Shown: positions 2,728 to 35,879 of the stretch, in pieces
How the letters are laid out: every line of letters starts with the position of its first letter
Position numbering within the stretch: the stretch's first letter is position 1
Source of the DNA: a virus
Strand: one strand, 5' to 3'
DNA: 64,000 nucleotides
IMG/VR virus record: IMGVR_UViG_3300023082_000010
Span: 28,421 to 92,420 of that record
The notes under the pieces: model-generated
Seen by the model: only the letters and a program-made list of their open reading frames with translations
Told to the model about the DNA's origin: nothing
Database searches by the model: none
Program-made: the position numbers and the translations under genes

Positions 2728-3041
2728 TCTTTAGGCTCTTCTGTTACTGTATACTGCCAAAGCGACTTTTGTTTTATGAAACGTGCAAAAAGTCCCAATG
2801 CGTTAAAAGAAAACATCAAGATTGCGTAGGTTTGTGTGGTCATCGTAGGTTCAAGCAACCCAAGAAACGGCAACAATTGGTCGATGAACGTAAGTATTAC
2901 AGATGAGAGGTGGAGCCAAAATGACCAAGTAAGAAAGATTTGCCTCCAGTTACTGACGACGGAAACCTTTGAAACTTTTTCCTTTACAATCTCTGCGCTT
3001 TGGGGTATAGTCAATTCTGAGGTAGGAGTTTCTTCTGCCAT
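2724..3041 (-). CDS. putative holin (two membrane spans)
   Basis: 105 aa with two hydrophobic stretches (about residues 33-60 and 72-90), a short loop and a charged C-terminus, the topology of class II/III holins. It is the first gene of the cluster that continues with the spanins, and the endolysin lies just upstream beyond an inserted endonuclease gene. No residue-level family signature was recognised; the call rests on topology and context. Confidence 0.6.
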   Translation of the reverse strand: MAEETPTSELTIPQSAEIVKEKVSKVSVVSNWRQIFLTWSFWLHLSSVILTFIDQLLPFLGLLEPTMTTQTYAILMFSFNALGLFARFIKQKSLWQYTVTEEPKE

Positions 3042-3072
3042 AATTTAATATTCTTGATAAAGGTGATATATA

Positions 3073-3609
3073 ATGAAGTTAGTTTATGGTGTGGGTATAA
3101 ATGATGCTGATTACACCCTCAGTAAATATGAAAAATTTGTCAGCGCGGAGGGCTTATTGAAGGTTCGTCAGGTATGGGTTTGTCCTTTTTATTCGAGATG
3201 GCAATCCATGATTACTCGCTGTTACAGTAAGAATTTTCTTATAGAGAATCCATCCTACAAAGATTGTACCGTCTGTGAGGAATGGTTAACTTTTAGTAAA
3301 TTTAAATCTTGGATGGAGACGCAGAATTGGAGTGGTAAGACCCTTGATAAAGATATATTGTGTAAAGGCAATAAAATTTACTCTCCCGAATTTTGTGTTT
3401 TTGTTCATGCCAAAGTAAATCTTTTTATCATTGAACGTGAGAGTAAACGTGGTGAATGGCCTATTGGTGTTCACTTTGAAGAGAGCTACCAAAAGTATAA
3501 ATCCACAATAACTTCTAACAATAAGACTGTAAACTTAGGTAGGTATGATACAGCTGAGCAAGCCCATCAAGCTTGGTTGGACTTTAAGCTTGATGGGCTT
3601 ATATACTAG
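3073..3609 (+). CDS. HNH/AP2-type homing endonuclease, C-terminally frameshifted
   Basis: 178 aa. It is a free-standing plus-strand gene inserted between leftward holin and endolysin genes. It belongs to the same family as the proteins at 27877, 45168 and 58908: W-x-x-M-x-x-R-C-Y-S, C-x-V-C-E-E-W, F-x-x-W, L-D-K-D-I-L, G-N-x-x-Y-S-P-x-x-C-x-F-V, then an AP2-like DNA-binding module (GVHFEES...LGRYDTAEQA). The frame stops at TAG 3607-3609, but the next frame continues to TAA 3680 with a stretch (EDDRVAKALVERYKN) that matches the C-terminus of the relatives. So a 1-2 nt indel has truncated it. The start is an ATG with AAAGGTG 6 nt upstream. Confidence 0.8.
   Translation: MKLVYGVGINDADYTLSKYEKFVSAEGLLKVRQVWVCPFYSRWQSMITRCYSKNFLIENPSYKDCTVCEEWLTFSKFKSWMETQNWSGKTLDKDILCKGNKIYSPEFCVFVHAKVNLFIIERESKRGEWPIGVHFEESYQKYKSTITSNNKTVNLGRYDTAEQAHQAWLDFKLDGLIY
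3560..3600. repeat. perfect 15-bp inverted repeat at the frameshift
   Basis: AAGCCCATCAAGCTT (3560-3574) and AAGCTTGATGGGCTT (3586-3600) are exact reverse complements around an 11-nt loop. The repeat is inside the 3' end of the endonuclease gene and its right arm spans the point where the family reading frame is lost. Confidence 0.9.
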
Positions 3610-3688
3610 CTTCAGAGCAAGAAGACGATAGGGTAGCTAAAGCTCTCGTAGAAAGGTACAAAAATTATTCTCGCACATAAGGCTTTGT

Positions 3689-3722
3689 AAAGCTGTTACA
3701 ACAACATAACAGCTTTATTTTA
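3689..3722. terminator. bidirectional terminator-like hairpin
   Basis: AAAGCTGTTA (3689-3698) pairs perfectly with TAACAGCTTT (3707-3716) over CAACAACA. It is followed on the plus strand by ATTTTAAA, and on the minus strand by ACAAAG. It lies between the converging endonuclease (+) and endolysin (-) genes. Confidence 0.65.
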
Positions 3723-3733
3723 AATCACCAAAA

Positions 3734-4162
3734 TTAAGAGAGAAACAATTCCTTCTCAGCCAACCTGCGTTTAGTCAATCCTGCCAGAACTTTACCACCA
3801 GCTTTATCCCACCTTGGAAACTCAGATGCTGCACCAGTATAATCCAGAGAGTTTAGCTTACGAAGCAAAGTAGAGGATTTGAGATTACCCAGTCCTAAGT
3901 TAAAAGAGAAACTAATCAAAGCAGCATGTTGGTTTTCATTCAAAGGAACTTTAACCAACTCAGCAACACCTTTTTCAAACTTTGCAAGGTCAGATTTTAA
4001 AAGAGTTTCCGCTTGGGATTCAGTAATAACTTGTCCCATATAGACATCAGAGCCAGTGTGTCCATATCCAATAGTCACTACACCAACAGAGTCCTTGTAA
4101 GCTTTTAGCTCAAGTCCCTCAAACTCTTTAATCAGATCAATCCCTTTTTGAGATGTCTTCAT
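3734..4162 (-). CDS. endolysin, T4-type lysozyme (GH24)
   Basis: 142 aa, a complete GH24 muramidase without a signal peptide or SAR domain, so it needs a holin. The catalytic triad has the family spacing E15-x8-D24-x5-T30 (EFEG...YKDSVGVVTIGYGHT). The C-terminal substrate-binding half (NQHAALISFSFNLG, GLTKRRLAEKELF) is intact. It cleaves N-acetylmuramic acid/N-acetylglucosamine bonds in peptidoglycan. The spanins and holin lie just downstream, beyond the inserted plus-strand endonuclease gene. Confidence 0.95.
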   Translation of the reverse strand: MKTSQKGIDLIKEFEGLELKAYKDSVGVVTIGYGHTGSDVYMGQVITESQAETLLKSDLAKFEKGVAELVKVPLNENQHAALISFSFNLGLGNLKSSTLLRKLNSLDYTGAASEFPRWDKAGGKVLAGLTKRRLAEKELFLS

Positions 4163-4177
4163 GTTTTATTTCCTCAA

Positions 4178-4201
4178 AAGACATCTGCCCTTACGGGCAG
4201 A
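4178..4201 (-). terminator. terminator after the Gly-rich fibre gene
   Basis: Leftward, TCTGCCC (4201-4195), GTAA loop, GGGCAGA (4190-4184), then TGTCTTTTG. A short, stable stem with tetraloop and T-rich tail. Confidence 0.7.
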
Positions 4202-4212
4202 ACATCCCCGTA

Positions 4213-5223
4213 TCAATACCACTCAATAATAATCAGACCACCTGATCCATTACCACCTGTGCCACCACGGTTGCTGCCATTCACACGATAGCAACCACCA
4301 CCACCTCCACCGCCTGCACCAAACTGTCCGGCGTTAACACCCGGATCACCATTGGATTTAGTACCACGGCCGCCCGCACCACCACCACCAAACGGGCTAC
4401 TGGCACCATTACCACCAGCACCACCGGAGCCTGCATTATCATCACCAATGGAGCCAGAAGCGTCTGAGCCACCACCACCATTGGGGTAGCCTGTACCACC
4501 TAGAACACCACCACCAGAACCATTGTTTACATTAGGACCTCCAAGCCCACCATTACCACCATCCAGGGTGAGGAAAGTACCAACTTTGGTGTCTCCGCCA
4601 GCTTGCCCGTTTGGGCCTGTGGTAAATGTACCTTGGAAACCTGATCCACCTGCACCGATAACAACTGCTAGAGTGCTGCCGGGAACTACAGTGAAAGGCA
4701 CTTTGATAATAGACTGTCCAGCACCACCACCGCCTGCGTTAGCACCAATGCGCCCTAATGATCCAGAGGCAGCAGAACCACCTCCAGCCCCACCACCACC
4801 ACCACCTGCAACACCGCTGATGTAGATAGTGGTTTTACCAGCAGGAACTACAAAGTAGCCGCTGCTAATAAACCGCATCATACCAGCAGAGGATACACCA
4901 AATGCTGTAGTCCAAGCACCGGTGGTATCTGTTACAGGGTTTACATTAGAGTTGGTTCTTACCGCACGATAGAGAGTACCGTTGCTGCCTTTGGTGTAGC
5001 TAAGGCTTGCCTGATACTCTGTCGCGTTATCCCACACAGGGATGCCATGTTGGTTTACGTGAGCGTTAAATCTGTCTTGTTTATTATCAAGCCAGTTGAA
5101 ATACTCACGAGGTGGGATAATAGCTTCCCAACCATTTGCAACATAAGCTGCATCTGGAGCTGCAATGTCTCCAGTAGCAGCCCAGATATTGTTAATGTCA
5201 TTAGGTTTGTTTATGTTAGGCAC
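4213..5223 (-). CDS. tail-fibre adhesin with glycine-rich C-terminal domain
   Basis: 336 aa. Residues 1-110 are a fibre/adhesin attachment region with a carbohydrate-binding-module-like stretch (VWDNATEYQASLSYTKG...LYRAV). From about residue 135 the protein is dominated by Gly runs (GGGGGGAGGGS and similar), ending in LIIIEWY. Such Gly-rich domains form polyglycine-II bundles in gp38-type receptor adhesins of T-even-like phages; I infer a similar receptor-tip role. It is the gene immediately after the tailspike. The Gly codons make this stretch locally GC-rich. Confidence 0.75.
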   Translation of the reverse strand: MPNINKPNDINNIWAATGDIAAPDAAYVANGWEAIIPPREYFNWLDNKQDRFNAHVNQHGIPVWDNATEYQASLSYTKGSNGTLYRAVRTNSNVNPVTDTTGAWTTAFGVSSAGMMRFISSGYFVVPAGKTTIYISGVAGGGGGGAGGGSAASGSLGRIGANAGGGGAGQSIIKVPFTVVPGSTLAVVIGAGGSGFQGTFTTGPNGQAGGDTKVGTFLTLDGGNGGLGGPNVNNGSGGGVLGGTGYPNGGGGSDASGSIGDDNAGSGGAGGNGASSPFGGGGAGGRGTKSNGDPGVNAGQFGAGGGGGGGCYRVNGSNRGGTGGNGSGGLIIIEWY

Positions 5224-26156: not shown

Positions 26157-27880
26157 TCAAAGCCTGAATTCGTTTGTCTTGGTGTAGATGGGAACTGCGA
26201 AGGATGGTACGCTTTTGTTTTGTGCCAAAGTGAGGTAGGCCAAAGAAGCACAGTCTGCCATATCATCGTGGCCCATTTCTCCACTACGTCTCTGTCCATC
26301 AAAAGCTTCAAGTTCCTTGTGAAAGAAATCATTATCCGCTACAATTTTATTCCAAAGATCATTGCAGCAACCTTTCACAATAGAAACAACACCTAGTTCG
26401 GCAGATGCAGCAAAAGGTCTGAAGGAGTCCAGCTTACCTAGTGATGCTCTTTTTGTTTTAACCACATATCCATGTTCAATAATAGAACGAGCTATTAGCA
26501 TAGTAGATGCCTTAGCTGCTGGGTTAGGGTCTTCTCCGAGAATAATTTCTACTTCGGGACCATCCCTTTGAGCACTGTCTAGGATTTGTTTTTCCCAATC
26601 ACCAAATGTTATTCGTGTTCTATAGACATCAAGGATCACATAATTACCATTTCTCAGCTTACCAAGCTTCAATGAGGCGAAGTAATCGGGCGATCTGTTT
26701 CCGTCGTGTGGCAAAGTGCCAGCGAAGTCAAAAACCCGAACTACCTTTGAAAACTCTGAATGGTGGGGTGCTTGAGTCAACACTGGAACAGTATTCCTAT
26801 CGTAATAGGTGCTGTTCTCCGGCTTTGCAAACCAATTCCCATAGAGCAATCGCTCGCGGTCAAGTTTTGGAAGAGATTCCAAATTTGAGCGATATAGTGG
26901 GTTACTTTTCTTCAGTGGGGGGTTATCATCAATAGTGCCAAATAACCCTTGAAAGCTAATTGGCTTTACTTGATCGTCATGTTCGGCTTCTAATTTAGGA
27001 TTTCCGTACTTGTCAATAAGCTCTTGCGCACTTTCACCCCAAACAATATCACCAGCCACTCGGAGCAGATAACGAACTGTGCCATTCTTTTCTGGGTCTG
27101 GGCGGCCAGCTAGTGCATGGCCCTCTGGATATAAATACCATTGTGCGTACTTTAGAAGCCAGCTTGAATTGTCAGGATTGCATGACATGACAATTCCGTG
27201 GACATTCTTCGCCTCAGACCTAAGCCGCGACCAAAGCCACCAAATATCTTCTTCCTCCGCGTGAGTTGCCTCATCATAAAAGATATTTGAAATTTGAATA
27301 CCTTGATATTTCTTAGCTGCGTTAGCATTCTCATAGTGCGAGAAGCTAATCTCTGCACCACTAGAAAATACTAATTTTTGATCTTTCAATCGAATTTTAA
27401 GACTAGGATCATACTGACTATATAGTTTAACTGCTTCCTGAAACAGACCACCAGAAGCCATAATCGCACTGGAGTTCTTACGAATACAATAAGCCTTATA
27501 GTTTGGATCTTCTACGAAACGAAGATGCCGCATTAACCCAACATAACTTTTGGAACTACCCAATAAATTCTAAGGTTCGTTAAACCTTCTCACATTTCTA
27601 TGAGGATCGGACTATATCACCTGTTATTTCTAACAGCCCCCCGTTTCGATTGCACTTGCAACCTACTCTGCTACACTCATCACAGATAGTCTCTGAACGT
27701 TACTTATTTCTAAGTCTTCGCTGCTGATTACCTTTAACTTAATAGTAAGGGTTCCAGCAATTAGAGGGGTTTAAAGCGGCCCGTAGTTCAAGCCGCCCCT
27801 CCAACTAGGAGGATTTGAGCATCTGAGAGCAGGTATTGCGATTGGAACCTGCTCTGAGCTGAGATAACAGTTTCTGTCAT
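26157..27880 (-). CDS. terL: large terminase subunit, gene split by a group I intron
   Basis: Exon 1 is 27880-27791 (30 codons, starting MTETVISAQSRFQ and ending LLVGGAA); exon 2 is 27560-26157 (GSSKSYVGLMRHLRF...). Splicing out 27790-27561 restores the Walker A motif G-G-A-A-G-S-S-K-S (residues 27-35) and gives a 497-aa protein. Walker B/catalytic Glu are in IFYDEATHAEEED (~124-134). The C-terminal RNase H-like nuclease begins at VRVFDFAGTLPHD and includes DDMADC. Without splicing the first exon runs into TGA at 27790. It cuts concatemers and pumps DNA through the portal. Confidence 0.93.
27561..27790 (-). ncRNA. group I intron in terL
   Basis: 230 nt without ORF. Conserved elements in order (leftward): P AATTGCTGGAACCC (27762-27749), Q GGTAATCAGCAGC (27732-27720), R GTTCAGAGACTA (27698-27687), S GATATAGTCC (27618-27609). 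P7 forms from GACTAT and ATAGTC. P1: exon GCGGCU (27796-27791) pairs with GGCCGC (27781-27776), giving U.G at the 5' splice site. P10: GAACTAC (27789-27783) pairs with GTAGTTC at the start of exon 2. The intron ends in G (27561). CTGTTA-GAAA-TAACAG forms a tetraloop stem before S. Confidence 0.95.
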
Positions 27881-28614
27881 ACTTGCACCAGTTTAATCCT
27901 TTTAGTTCTTGGAGTTTTTGAGGCTGCTGATTTGTTTTCAAACTCAGTAGCGAAAATACAAGCTTCTCTAGAATAAACTTTATTACCTTCAAATTTAAGA
28001 TCTTTGTCTAAATTATAAGGGCTTGTACCGAGCTGTTTAGCTTCCAACCAAGAATCAAAATTATCTAAACTGGAGATGTCTGAAAGAAAGTTAGCAAAAC
28101 AATGCCACCTCGTATCTACGAAACATTTGCCAAAATACCCATGAGCATCTTTAGGATTATAACAACGCTTCATCATATTTGACCAAAGCTGCTTAGCTTG
28201 TTTCCAATAAGGCAGAAGCTCATACTCTCCTAAATAACCAATCCCAAGAAAGGTTTTGCTATAAGGATCGGATATTTTACCCATCCGTACATTATCAATG
28301 TGTACTTCTGCTGTGTAGCCTGTATCATAGAATTGAACTACGCACTTCTTGGACTTCTTACTAATAATTTTTCCACTGTATCCAGCATTATTAGTAAACT
28401 CTTCGTCCCAAGGTTGCCAGTCGTGAGCTGTACATTTTGGTACGCTAAAGTCTCTAACCTTACCAGCAAGTACATTGCCAGCGTCAGCTGTTGTTTCATA
28501 ACCTGTAGTAACAAATCTTAAATGTAGTTTTCGGCCATCTCGACCAATAACTTCCATAATTCCGTAGCCATTCGACTCGTAAAACTGATCATAAATTTTT
28601 CTTACATTAGCCAT
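27877..28614 (-). CDS. homing endonuclease beside terL, AP2 part missing
   Basis: 245 aa. Two tandem N-terminal modules of ~55 residues (each with K/R-x-x-V-x-F-x-x-T-G-Y and N-V-x-x-G-K-(V/I)-x-D) are followed by the family core (NMMKRCYNPKD, W-H-C-F-A-N-F, LDKDLKFEGNKVYSREACIF). Unlike its relatives it ends ~20 residues later, so the AP2-like C-terminus is absent. Its TGA overlaps the ATG of terL exon 1 (ATGA). It lies outside the intron, upstream of exon 1, with its own GGGAG site. It may home into intron-less terL and carry the intron along. Confidence 0.85.
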   Translation of the reverse strand: MANVRKIYDQFYESNGYGIMEVIGRDGRKLHLRFVTTGYETTADAGNVLAGKVRDFSVPKCTAHDWQPWDEEFTNNAGYSGKIISKKSKKCVVQFYDTGYTAEVHIDNVRMGKISDPYSKTFLGIGYLGEYELLPYWKQAKQLWSNMMKRCYNPKDAHGYFGKCFVDTRWHCFANFLSDISSLDNFDSWLEAKQLGTSPYNLDKDLKFEGNKVYSREACIFATEFENKSAASKTPRTKRIKLVQV

Positions 28615-28653: not shown

Positions 28654-28998
28654 TTATTTCTTCTCAAAACTTTCTTCATACTGTCGAATAAGCTGTGCTC
28701 TGTCGCGACCACTAATGCCACGTTCTTTACAGACAGCTTTCAACTTATCCCATTCAAATTCTTCAAGCTGCTCTTTACTATACTGCAACTCAACAGGATA
28801 CACCCGAACACCATTCACCATGTCATCTTCAAGAAACTCTTCAGTTTCAACGTTCAGCATGACTTTATTCGGAAAGGTATTTTTGGTTGGATAACTGCTG
28901 TCAATCGTAGCACCGAGGTTAGCGAACCGTACCACATTCTCAAGAAATTTAATCCCTGAGCTATCTGTTGCTTTAAGCTCTACTTTATAAGTATTCAC
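28654..28998 (-). CDS. small protein with SAP-like C-terminal helix pair
   Basis: 114 aa. The C-terminal LKAVCKERGISGRDRAQLIRQYEE resembles SAP or Rho-N-like DNA-binding motifs. The N-terminal half is beta-rich. It is the first gene of the terL-portal-capsid operon, immediately after a near-consensus promoter. Confidence 0.65.
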   Translation of the reverse strand: MNTYKVELKATDSSGIKFLENVVRFANLGATIDSSYPTKNTFPNKVMLNVETEEFLEDDMVNGVRVYPVELQYSKEQLEEFEWDKLKAVCKERGISGRDRAQLIRQYEESFEKK

Positions 28999-35802: not shown

Positions 35803-35879
35803 TGGTGGGTCCATCCAGACTTGAACTGGAAATCAACGAATTATGAGTTCGCTGCATTAACCAATTATGCTACAGACCC
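35803..35879 (-). tRNA. tRNA with CAT anticodon (Met or Ile2)
   Basis: Full cloverleaf with encoded CCA: acceptor GGGTCTG/TGGACCC, D-arm GCAT...ATGC, anticodon stem GCGAA/TTCGT with loop CTCATAA (anticodon at 35845-35843), T-arm TCCAG-TTCAAGT-CTGGA. It could be elongator tRNA-Met or tRNA-Ile with modified C34; sequence alone does not decide. Confidence 0.93.

Follow-up and report, generated by a model that had tools for sequence, protein, structure and literature searches.

A group I intron in the Walker A loop of a phage terminase gene and its likely partnership with an upstream endonuclease-type gene

The subject of this report is the terminase large subunit gene (terL) in a 64,000-nucleotide (nt) stretch of viral DNA (IMG/VR record IMGVR_UViG_3300023082_000010, positions 28,421 to 92,420), which as a whole is called the window below. 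On the minus strand of the window, terL is divided into a very short exon 1 and a long exon 2 by a group I intron that has no open reading frame (ORF) of its own and interrupts the Walker A loop (P-loop) of the terminase, and the stop codon of a free-standing endonuclease-type gene overlaps the ATG of exon 1 (ATGA). An ORF-less intron adjoining a free-standing endonuclease gene is the layout of collaborative homing, and we think it likely that this is a self-splicing intron which has been spread in that way with the help of the nuclease encoded upstream. The coordinates of all the features are collected in Table 1.

Table 1. Features at the terL locus, in window coordinates (aa, amino acids)
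Feature	Position	Strand	Basis or remark
114-aa gene	28654..28998	-	counterpart of the gene abutting terL in L149/L150; similar protein kind by eye
Free-standing endonuclease-type gene, 245 aa	27877..28614	-	phrog_2081, phrog_953, phrog_374 ("HNH endonuclease"); probably travels with the intron
terL exon 1, 30 codons, MTETVISAQSRFQSQYLLSDAQILLVGGAA	27791..27880	-	direct sequence reading; same exon 1 type in relatives
P1, exon side GCGGCU	27791..27796	-	sequence reading, covariation
ORF-less group I intron, 230 nt	27561..27790	-	RF00028, 76.6 bits; covariation
In-frame TGA, intron codon 1	27788..27790	-	sequence reading
P10, intron side GAACUAC	27783..27789	-	sequence reading
P1, internal guide sequence GGCCGC	27776..27781	-	sequence reading, covariation
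P3, 5' arm	27764..27769	-	alignment of same-site introns
P7, 5' arm GACUA	27687..27691	-	alignment of same-site introns
P3, 3' arm	27637..27642	-	alignment of same-site introns
P7, 3' arm UAGUC	27610..27614	-	alignment of same-site introns
terL exon 2, 467 codons from GSSKS plus stop	26157..27560	-	phrog_979, E 5e-140; Pfam Terminase_6N
P10, exon 2 side GUAGUUC	27553..27559	-	sequence reading; compensatory changes in relatives

A covariance-model search (cmscan) matches the group I intron model RF00028 at 27800-27588 on the minus strand with 76.6 bits (gathering score 50, E 1.1e-17), over the complete model from 1 to 253. This bears out the first-pass annotation, which had read by eye a group I intron splitting terL; the limits that it gave, 27790-27561, are right to the base when the minus strand is read directly, as are P1 with its U.G pair and P10. 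Exon 1 begins with the ATG at 27880 and ends with the U at 27791, the U.G pair of P1 falls at the 5' splice site, the final intron base is G, and P10 joins the intron to exon 2 over 7 bp. Exon 2, the main body of the terminase large subunit, opens with GGTAGTTCC (longer read GSSKSYVGLMRHLRF) from 27560. Removal of the 230 nt gives the predicted junction ..GGGGCGGCT|GGTAGTTCC.. (exon 1|exon 2), and the joined frame reads VGGAA|GSSKS, in which the Walker A loop is whole again, just as had been proposed. Judged from its sequence, the terL transcript of this phage is almost certainly spliced. A permissive Rfam scan, with E values up to 1, finds no second group I intron in the window, and in the 92,420-base virus record RF00028 matches at the terL intron only; a low-threshold Rfam scan for other RNA elements gives nothing at the intron site, its sub-threshold extras all lying elsewhere.

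Because of the intron, terL of such phages is wrongly annotated as truncated. The ORF caller overlooks exon 1 and gives an ORF of 468 aa that starts with a TTG at 27563, a false start against which the first-pass annotation had warned. In unspliced RNA, translation would end at intron codon 1; among the other listed introns at this site, about half have a stop at codon 1 and the remainder within 11 codons. Because of this TGA, and because exon 2 alone is without the first half of the P-loop, the packaging motor would need splicing, and to the extent that sequence can support it this part of the earlier proposal stands.

Comparative support for the fold comes from an alignment of 21 introns that share the codon boundary of the window's intron. 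In this alignment 93.6% of the cells are paired, against 72.7% after shuffling, and none of 500 shuffles is as high; the pairs are drawn partly from the alignment's own RNAalifold fold, which biases this percentage upward but has no bearing on the Rfam match. The covariation score is 0.586, compared with 0.196 for shuffled and 0.07-0.14 for slid versions, and double changes are present in 33 of the 48 pairs, some of them in the splice-site helices P1 and P10. Since two of the three alignable P10 pairs have compensatory double changes, the alignment supports the 3' splice site as well. The guanosine-binding helix P7 (GACUA/UAGUC) is nearly invariant and paired in 100% of its cells. The intron fold is well beyond chance. 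Immediately before the site, 7/7 intron-bearing terminases of the window's clade have a T, compared with 10/44 intron-free ones (p 1.7e-4), as would follow from a constraint of P1 on the exon flanks or from their co-conversion.

We turn now to the gene directly upstream, which the first-pass annotation had overlooked. Its 245-aa product matches phrog_2081 (E 1e-48), phrog_953 (3e-21) and phrog_374 (9e-16), all three annotated as HNH endonuclease, and nonsynonymous divergence in the family (dN 0.06-0.08) is far below synonymous divergence (dS 0.9-1.1) in the comparisons with a computable dS, a pattern that indicates purifying selection. AlphaFold2 models of 12 relatives (mean predicted local distance difference test score, pLDDT, 82.6) have a pair of small beta barrels in tandem in their N-terminal half. 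Searching PDB sequences with a profile of the endonuclease gives no match. The protein is probably a nuclease that cuts at or near the P-loop of terL.

Evidence that the gene and the intron move as a pair is provided by L130 and L132 (L numbers denote loci that we compared). The endonuclease is 74% identical in aa and the intron 83% alike in nt between the window and these two loci, whereas the next gene upstream (29-33%), TerL exon 2 (32%) and the portal (39%, L130) have diverged. This island of identity, seen in a comparison of a few genomes rather than in an observed transfer, shows that gene plus intron have spread laterally among distant terminases, and the two were probably transferred together. 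The similarity of the introns does not follow that of the terminases: the window's intron is 82% alike to that of L113, where TerL is 81% identical, and 83-85% alike to those of L023 and L089, where TerL is 32% identical. In general it is closer to introns of the same site than to those of other sites, with a small margin over the intron of L006, which lies beside a DNA polymerase gene.

As a control, 79 loci were picked by their exon 2 peptides only. P-loop introns are present in L090, L151, L152, L157, L164, L165, L167, L184, L188 and L203-205, and mapping the intron onto the terL tree takes a minimum of 6 changes. With near copies removed and the window added, a nuclease gene lies upstream in 9/10 intron-bearing and 22/44 intron-free terminases of the clade (Fisher two-sided p 0.03). 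Clean empty sites are found in L149 and L150, whose terminase is 82% identical to that of the window; there is neither intron nor nuclease gene, and a 116-aa gene abuts terL.

According to the mechanism that we propose, GCGGCU of exon 1 would pair with the guide sequence of the intron to form P1, a guanosine would attack after the last U of the exon, P10 would align exon 2, and ligation would restore GGAAGSSKS. The nuclease encoded upstream would cut terL copies that lack the intron, in or close to the P-loop, and during repair the endonuclease gene, exon 1 and the intron would be copied jointly into the recipient.

The next question is how often this arrangement occurs. Among the IMG/VR matches listed in a degenerate pattern scan and the loci already in hand, at least 43 terminase reading frames, that of the window included, have the P-loop glycine as their very first residue following the 3' end of an intron. 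About two thirds of the matches listed are unrelated, and we kept only those in which a terminase reading frame is present; a P-loop is built into the pattern, which biases the counts. Exon 1 is unplaced in the hits L029, L114, L099, L123 and L012. Walker A introns are seen in dozens of environmental phage contigs among the matches listed, which include about 22 distinct resolved ORF-less introns of 213-260 nt; by our own count, a free-standing nuclease gene ends at or just before exon 1 in 18 of them. The insertion points are GGAA|GSSKS (the window and most others), VGG|AAGSSKS (L165, L184, L188), GGA|AGGGKS (Vibrio phage ICP1 and probably L017) and GGAAGS|AKS (L203-205, with the intron match at 2683-2949 in L203). 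The upstream nucleases, assigned either by scanning representatives directly or through their similarity to these representatives, belong to at least five families, namely phrog_2081 (the window's type), phrog_374, phrog_59, phrog_655 and phrog_681, which PHROGs labels endonuclease, HNH endonuclease or homing endonuclease and of which we take the last four to be AP2-like, NUMOD4-like, NUMOD3-like and GIY-YIG/T5orf172-like, respectively. A general reading, for and against which we find the case evenly balanced, is that the terminase Walker A loop is a homing hot spot of tailed phages, where ORF-less introns at four or more positions within ~12 nt would be driven by interchangeable upstream free-standing endonucleases, the partners having repeatedly changed while the address was kept.

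Several results weigh against collaborative homing by the window's gene. The 245-aa protein matches no Pfam nuclease, indeed no Pfam model, and its conserved C-terminal block has, by eye, no obvious canonical HNH histidine pair; Foldseek matches the N-terminal barrels weakly to Tudor/SH3-like repeats and finds nothing convincing, and no nuclease, for the C-terminal domain. The association of intron and endonuclease gene had p 0.06 before L203 was added, a phylogenetic pair test of it is not significant, and within the window's terminase clade it is suggestive and modest. In L129, which has the closest endonuclease relative (75% aa), the gene precedes a terL with no Walker A intron, and a group I intron at 4848-5065 lies ~290 nt further into terL, near the Walker B region; endonuclease relatives of 41-49% sit downstream of terL, between terL and the portal. 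Given L129 and these downstream relatives, the cut site of the window's protein may lie elsewhere in terL and not in the P-loop.

Some of these observations favor an explanation in which the intron is real and the upstream gene is an independent neighbor: endonuclease genes would gather around terL anyway, as the 22 intron-free terminases with such a gene, its occurrence on either side of terL, and L129 all suggest, and the intron would have come otherwise, through an intron-borne nuclease that was later lost or by reverse splicing. L101 and L126, where a nuclease gene lies apparently within a longer intron near the Walker A site, fit such a history, and the turnover alternative is raised by Barth et al. 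themselves (PMC10448857). We consider this explanation unlikely, because endonuclease and intron form one island of identity between phages with 32% identical terminases and because, among the matches listed, the endonuclease gene recurs at exon 1 of most ORF-less Walker A introns.

The first-pass annotation had suggested that splicing could time packaging, and the corresponding explanation, that the intron is retained since its splicing delays TerL until translation or growth state permits, finds a parallel in the general literature, where T4 intron splicing is tied to growth state and translation (Sandegren and Sjoberg 2007, as cited in PMC3984707). Introns of this set share an early in-frame stop, as regulation would have it, but such a stop is equally expected just to shield the fold from ribosomes; the intron is sporadic among close relatives, and L149 and L150 have the same gene uninterrupted. 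The timing proposal gains no support from these data and we hold regulation to be very improbable; the endonuclease-type gene is the better explanation of the intron's presence. That the intron is degenerate and terL a pseudogene is scarcely credible, with every core helix intact and an exon 2 that is full length, has no internal stops and shares 70-83% identity with intact relatives.

A few other observations were made at these and related loci. L195 (~414) and L196 (~2093) have an in-frame insertion that ends ..GNIFVTGN right before the P-loop SSKS, probably an intein rather than an intron. The HNH/NUMOD3-type gene upstream in L203-L205 is 38% identical to the gene before terL in Pseudomonas phage M1 (L003), where terL has no intron. 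In Pseudomonas phage KIL1 (L228, 2361-5245), an endonuclease gene of the phrog_2081 type lies between terL and the portal and has three group I introns around it; terL and the portal are both annotated as joined genes. L163 has, directly upstream of terL, a 212-aa gene (2258-2893) that is partly similar to the terminase itself (phrog_979). Elsewhere in the window there is a single tRNA-Met (CAT) gene (35803-35879, minus strand).

The layout described here is already known from ICP1; the present analysis adds that it recurs, with exchangeable nucleases, in many unrelated phages at one small set of codons or close to it. This offers many natural replicates of an arrangement formerly described in a handful of phages, and with an insertion codon in common, nucleases of several unrelated kinds, and empty sites to match, the partnering of intron and endonuclease becomes directly testable. 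ICP1, like the window, has an ORF-less group I intron inside the P-loop, a very short exon 1 and a free-standing endonuclease gene overlapping the exon 1 start; its terL splicing was demonstrated by RNA-seq, reverse transcription PCR and Sanger sequencing, and the neighboring T5orf172 gene, of another family than the window's phrog_2081 type, was described as a collaborative-homing arrangement (PMC10448857). From our own reading of P1 (GGUGCU/GGUACC) and P10, for the text of PMC10448857 states no TerL position, ICP1 would splice at YGGA|AGGGKS, one codon upstream of GGAA|GSSKS. Vibrio phages 11895-B1, vB_VpaM_R16F and 1.063.O have introns of 238-247 nt at the exact codon boundary of the window (IGGAA|GSGKS, YGGSA|GSGKS) and an endonuclease gene just upstream, although their nucleases are GIY-YIG/T5orf172-like or NUMOD4-HNH, and terL of R16F (L004) holds four group I introns (2929-4957), three more than in the window. 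The public annotation of R16F gives five separate terminase fragments. Known collaborative homing systems, namely the cyanophage psbA intron with F-CphI and those of T3/T7-like phages, likewise pair an ORF-less group I intron with an adjacent free-standing endonuclease gene (PMC3984707, PMC6083498). Group I introns are present in terL of the Bastillevirinae too, but that set averages ~800 nt and most of its introns contain the nuclease gene (PMC11878797). The mycobacteriophage inteins TerL1-a/b likewise occupy the Walker A motif of TerL, at positions a few residues apart and by protein rather than RNA splicing (PMC5050341), so different kinds of mobile element are drawn to this motif.
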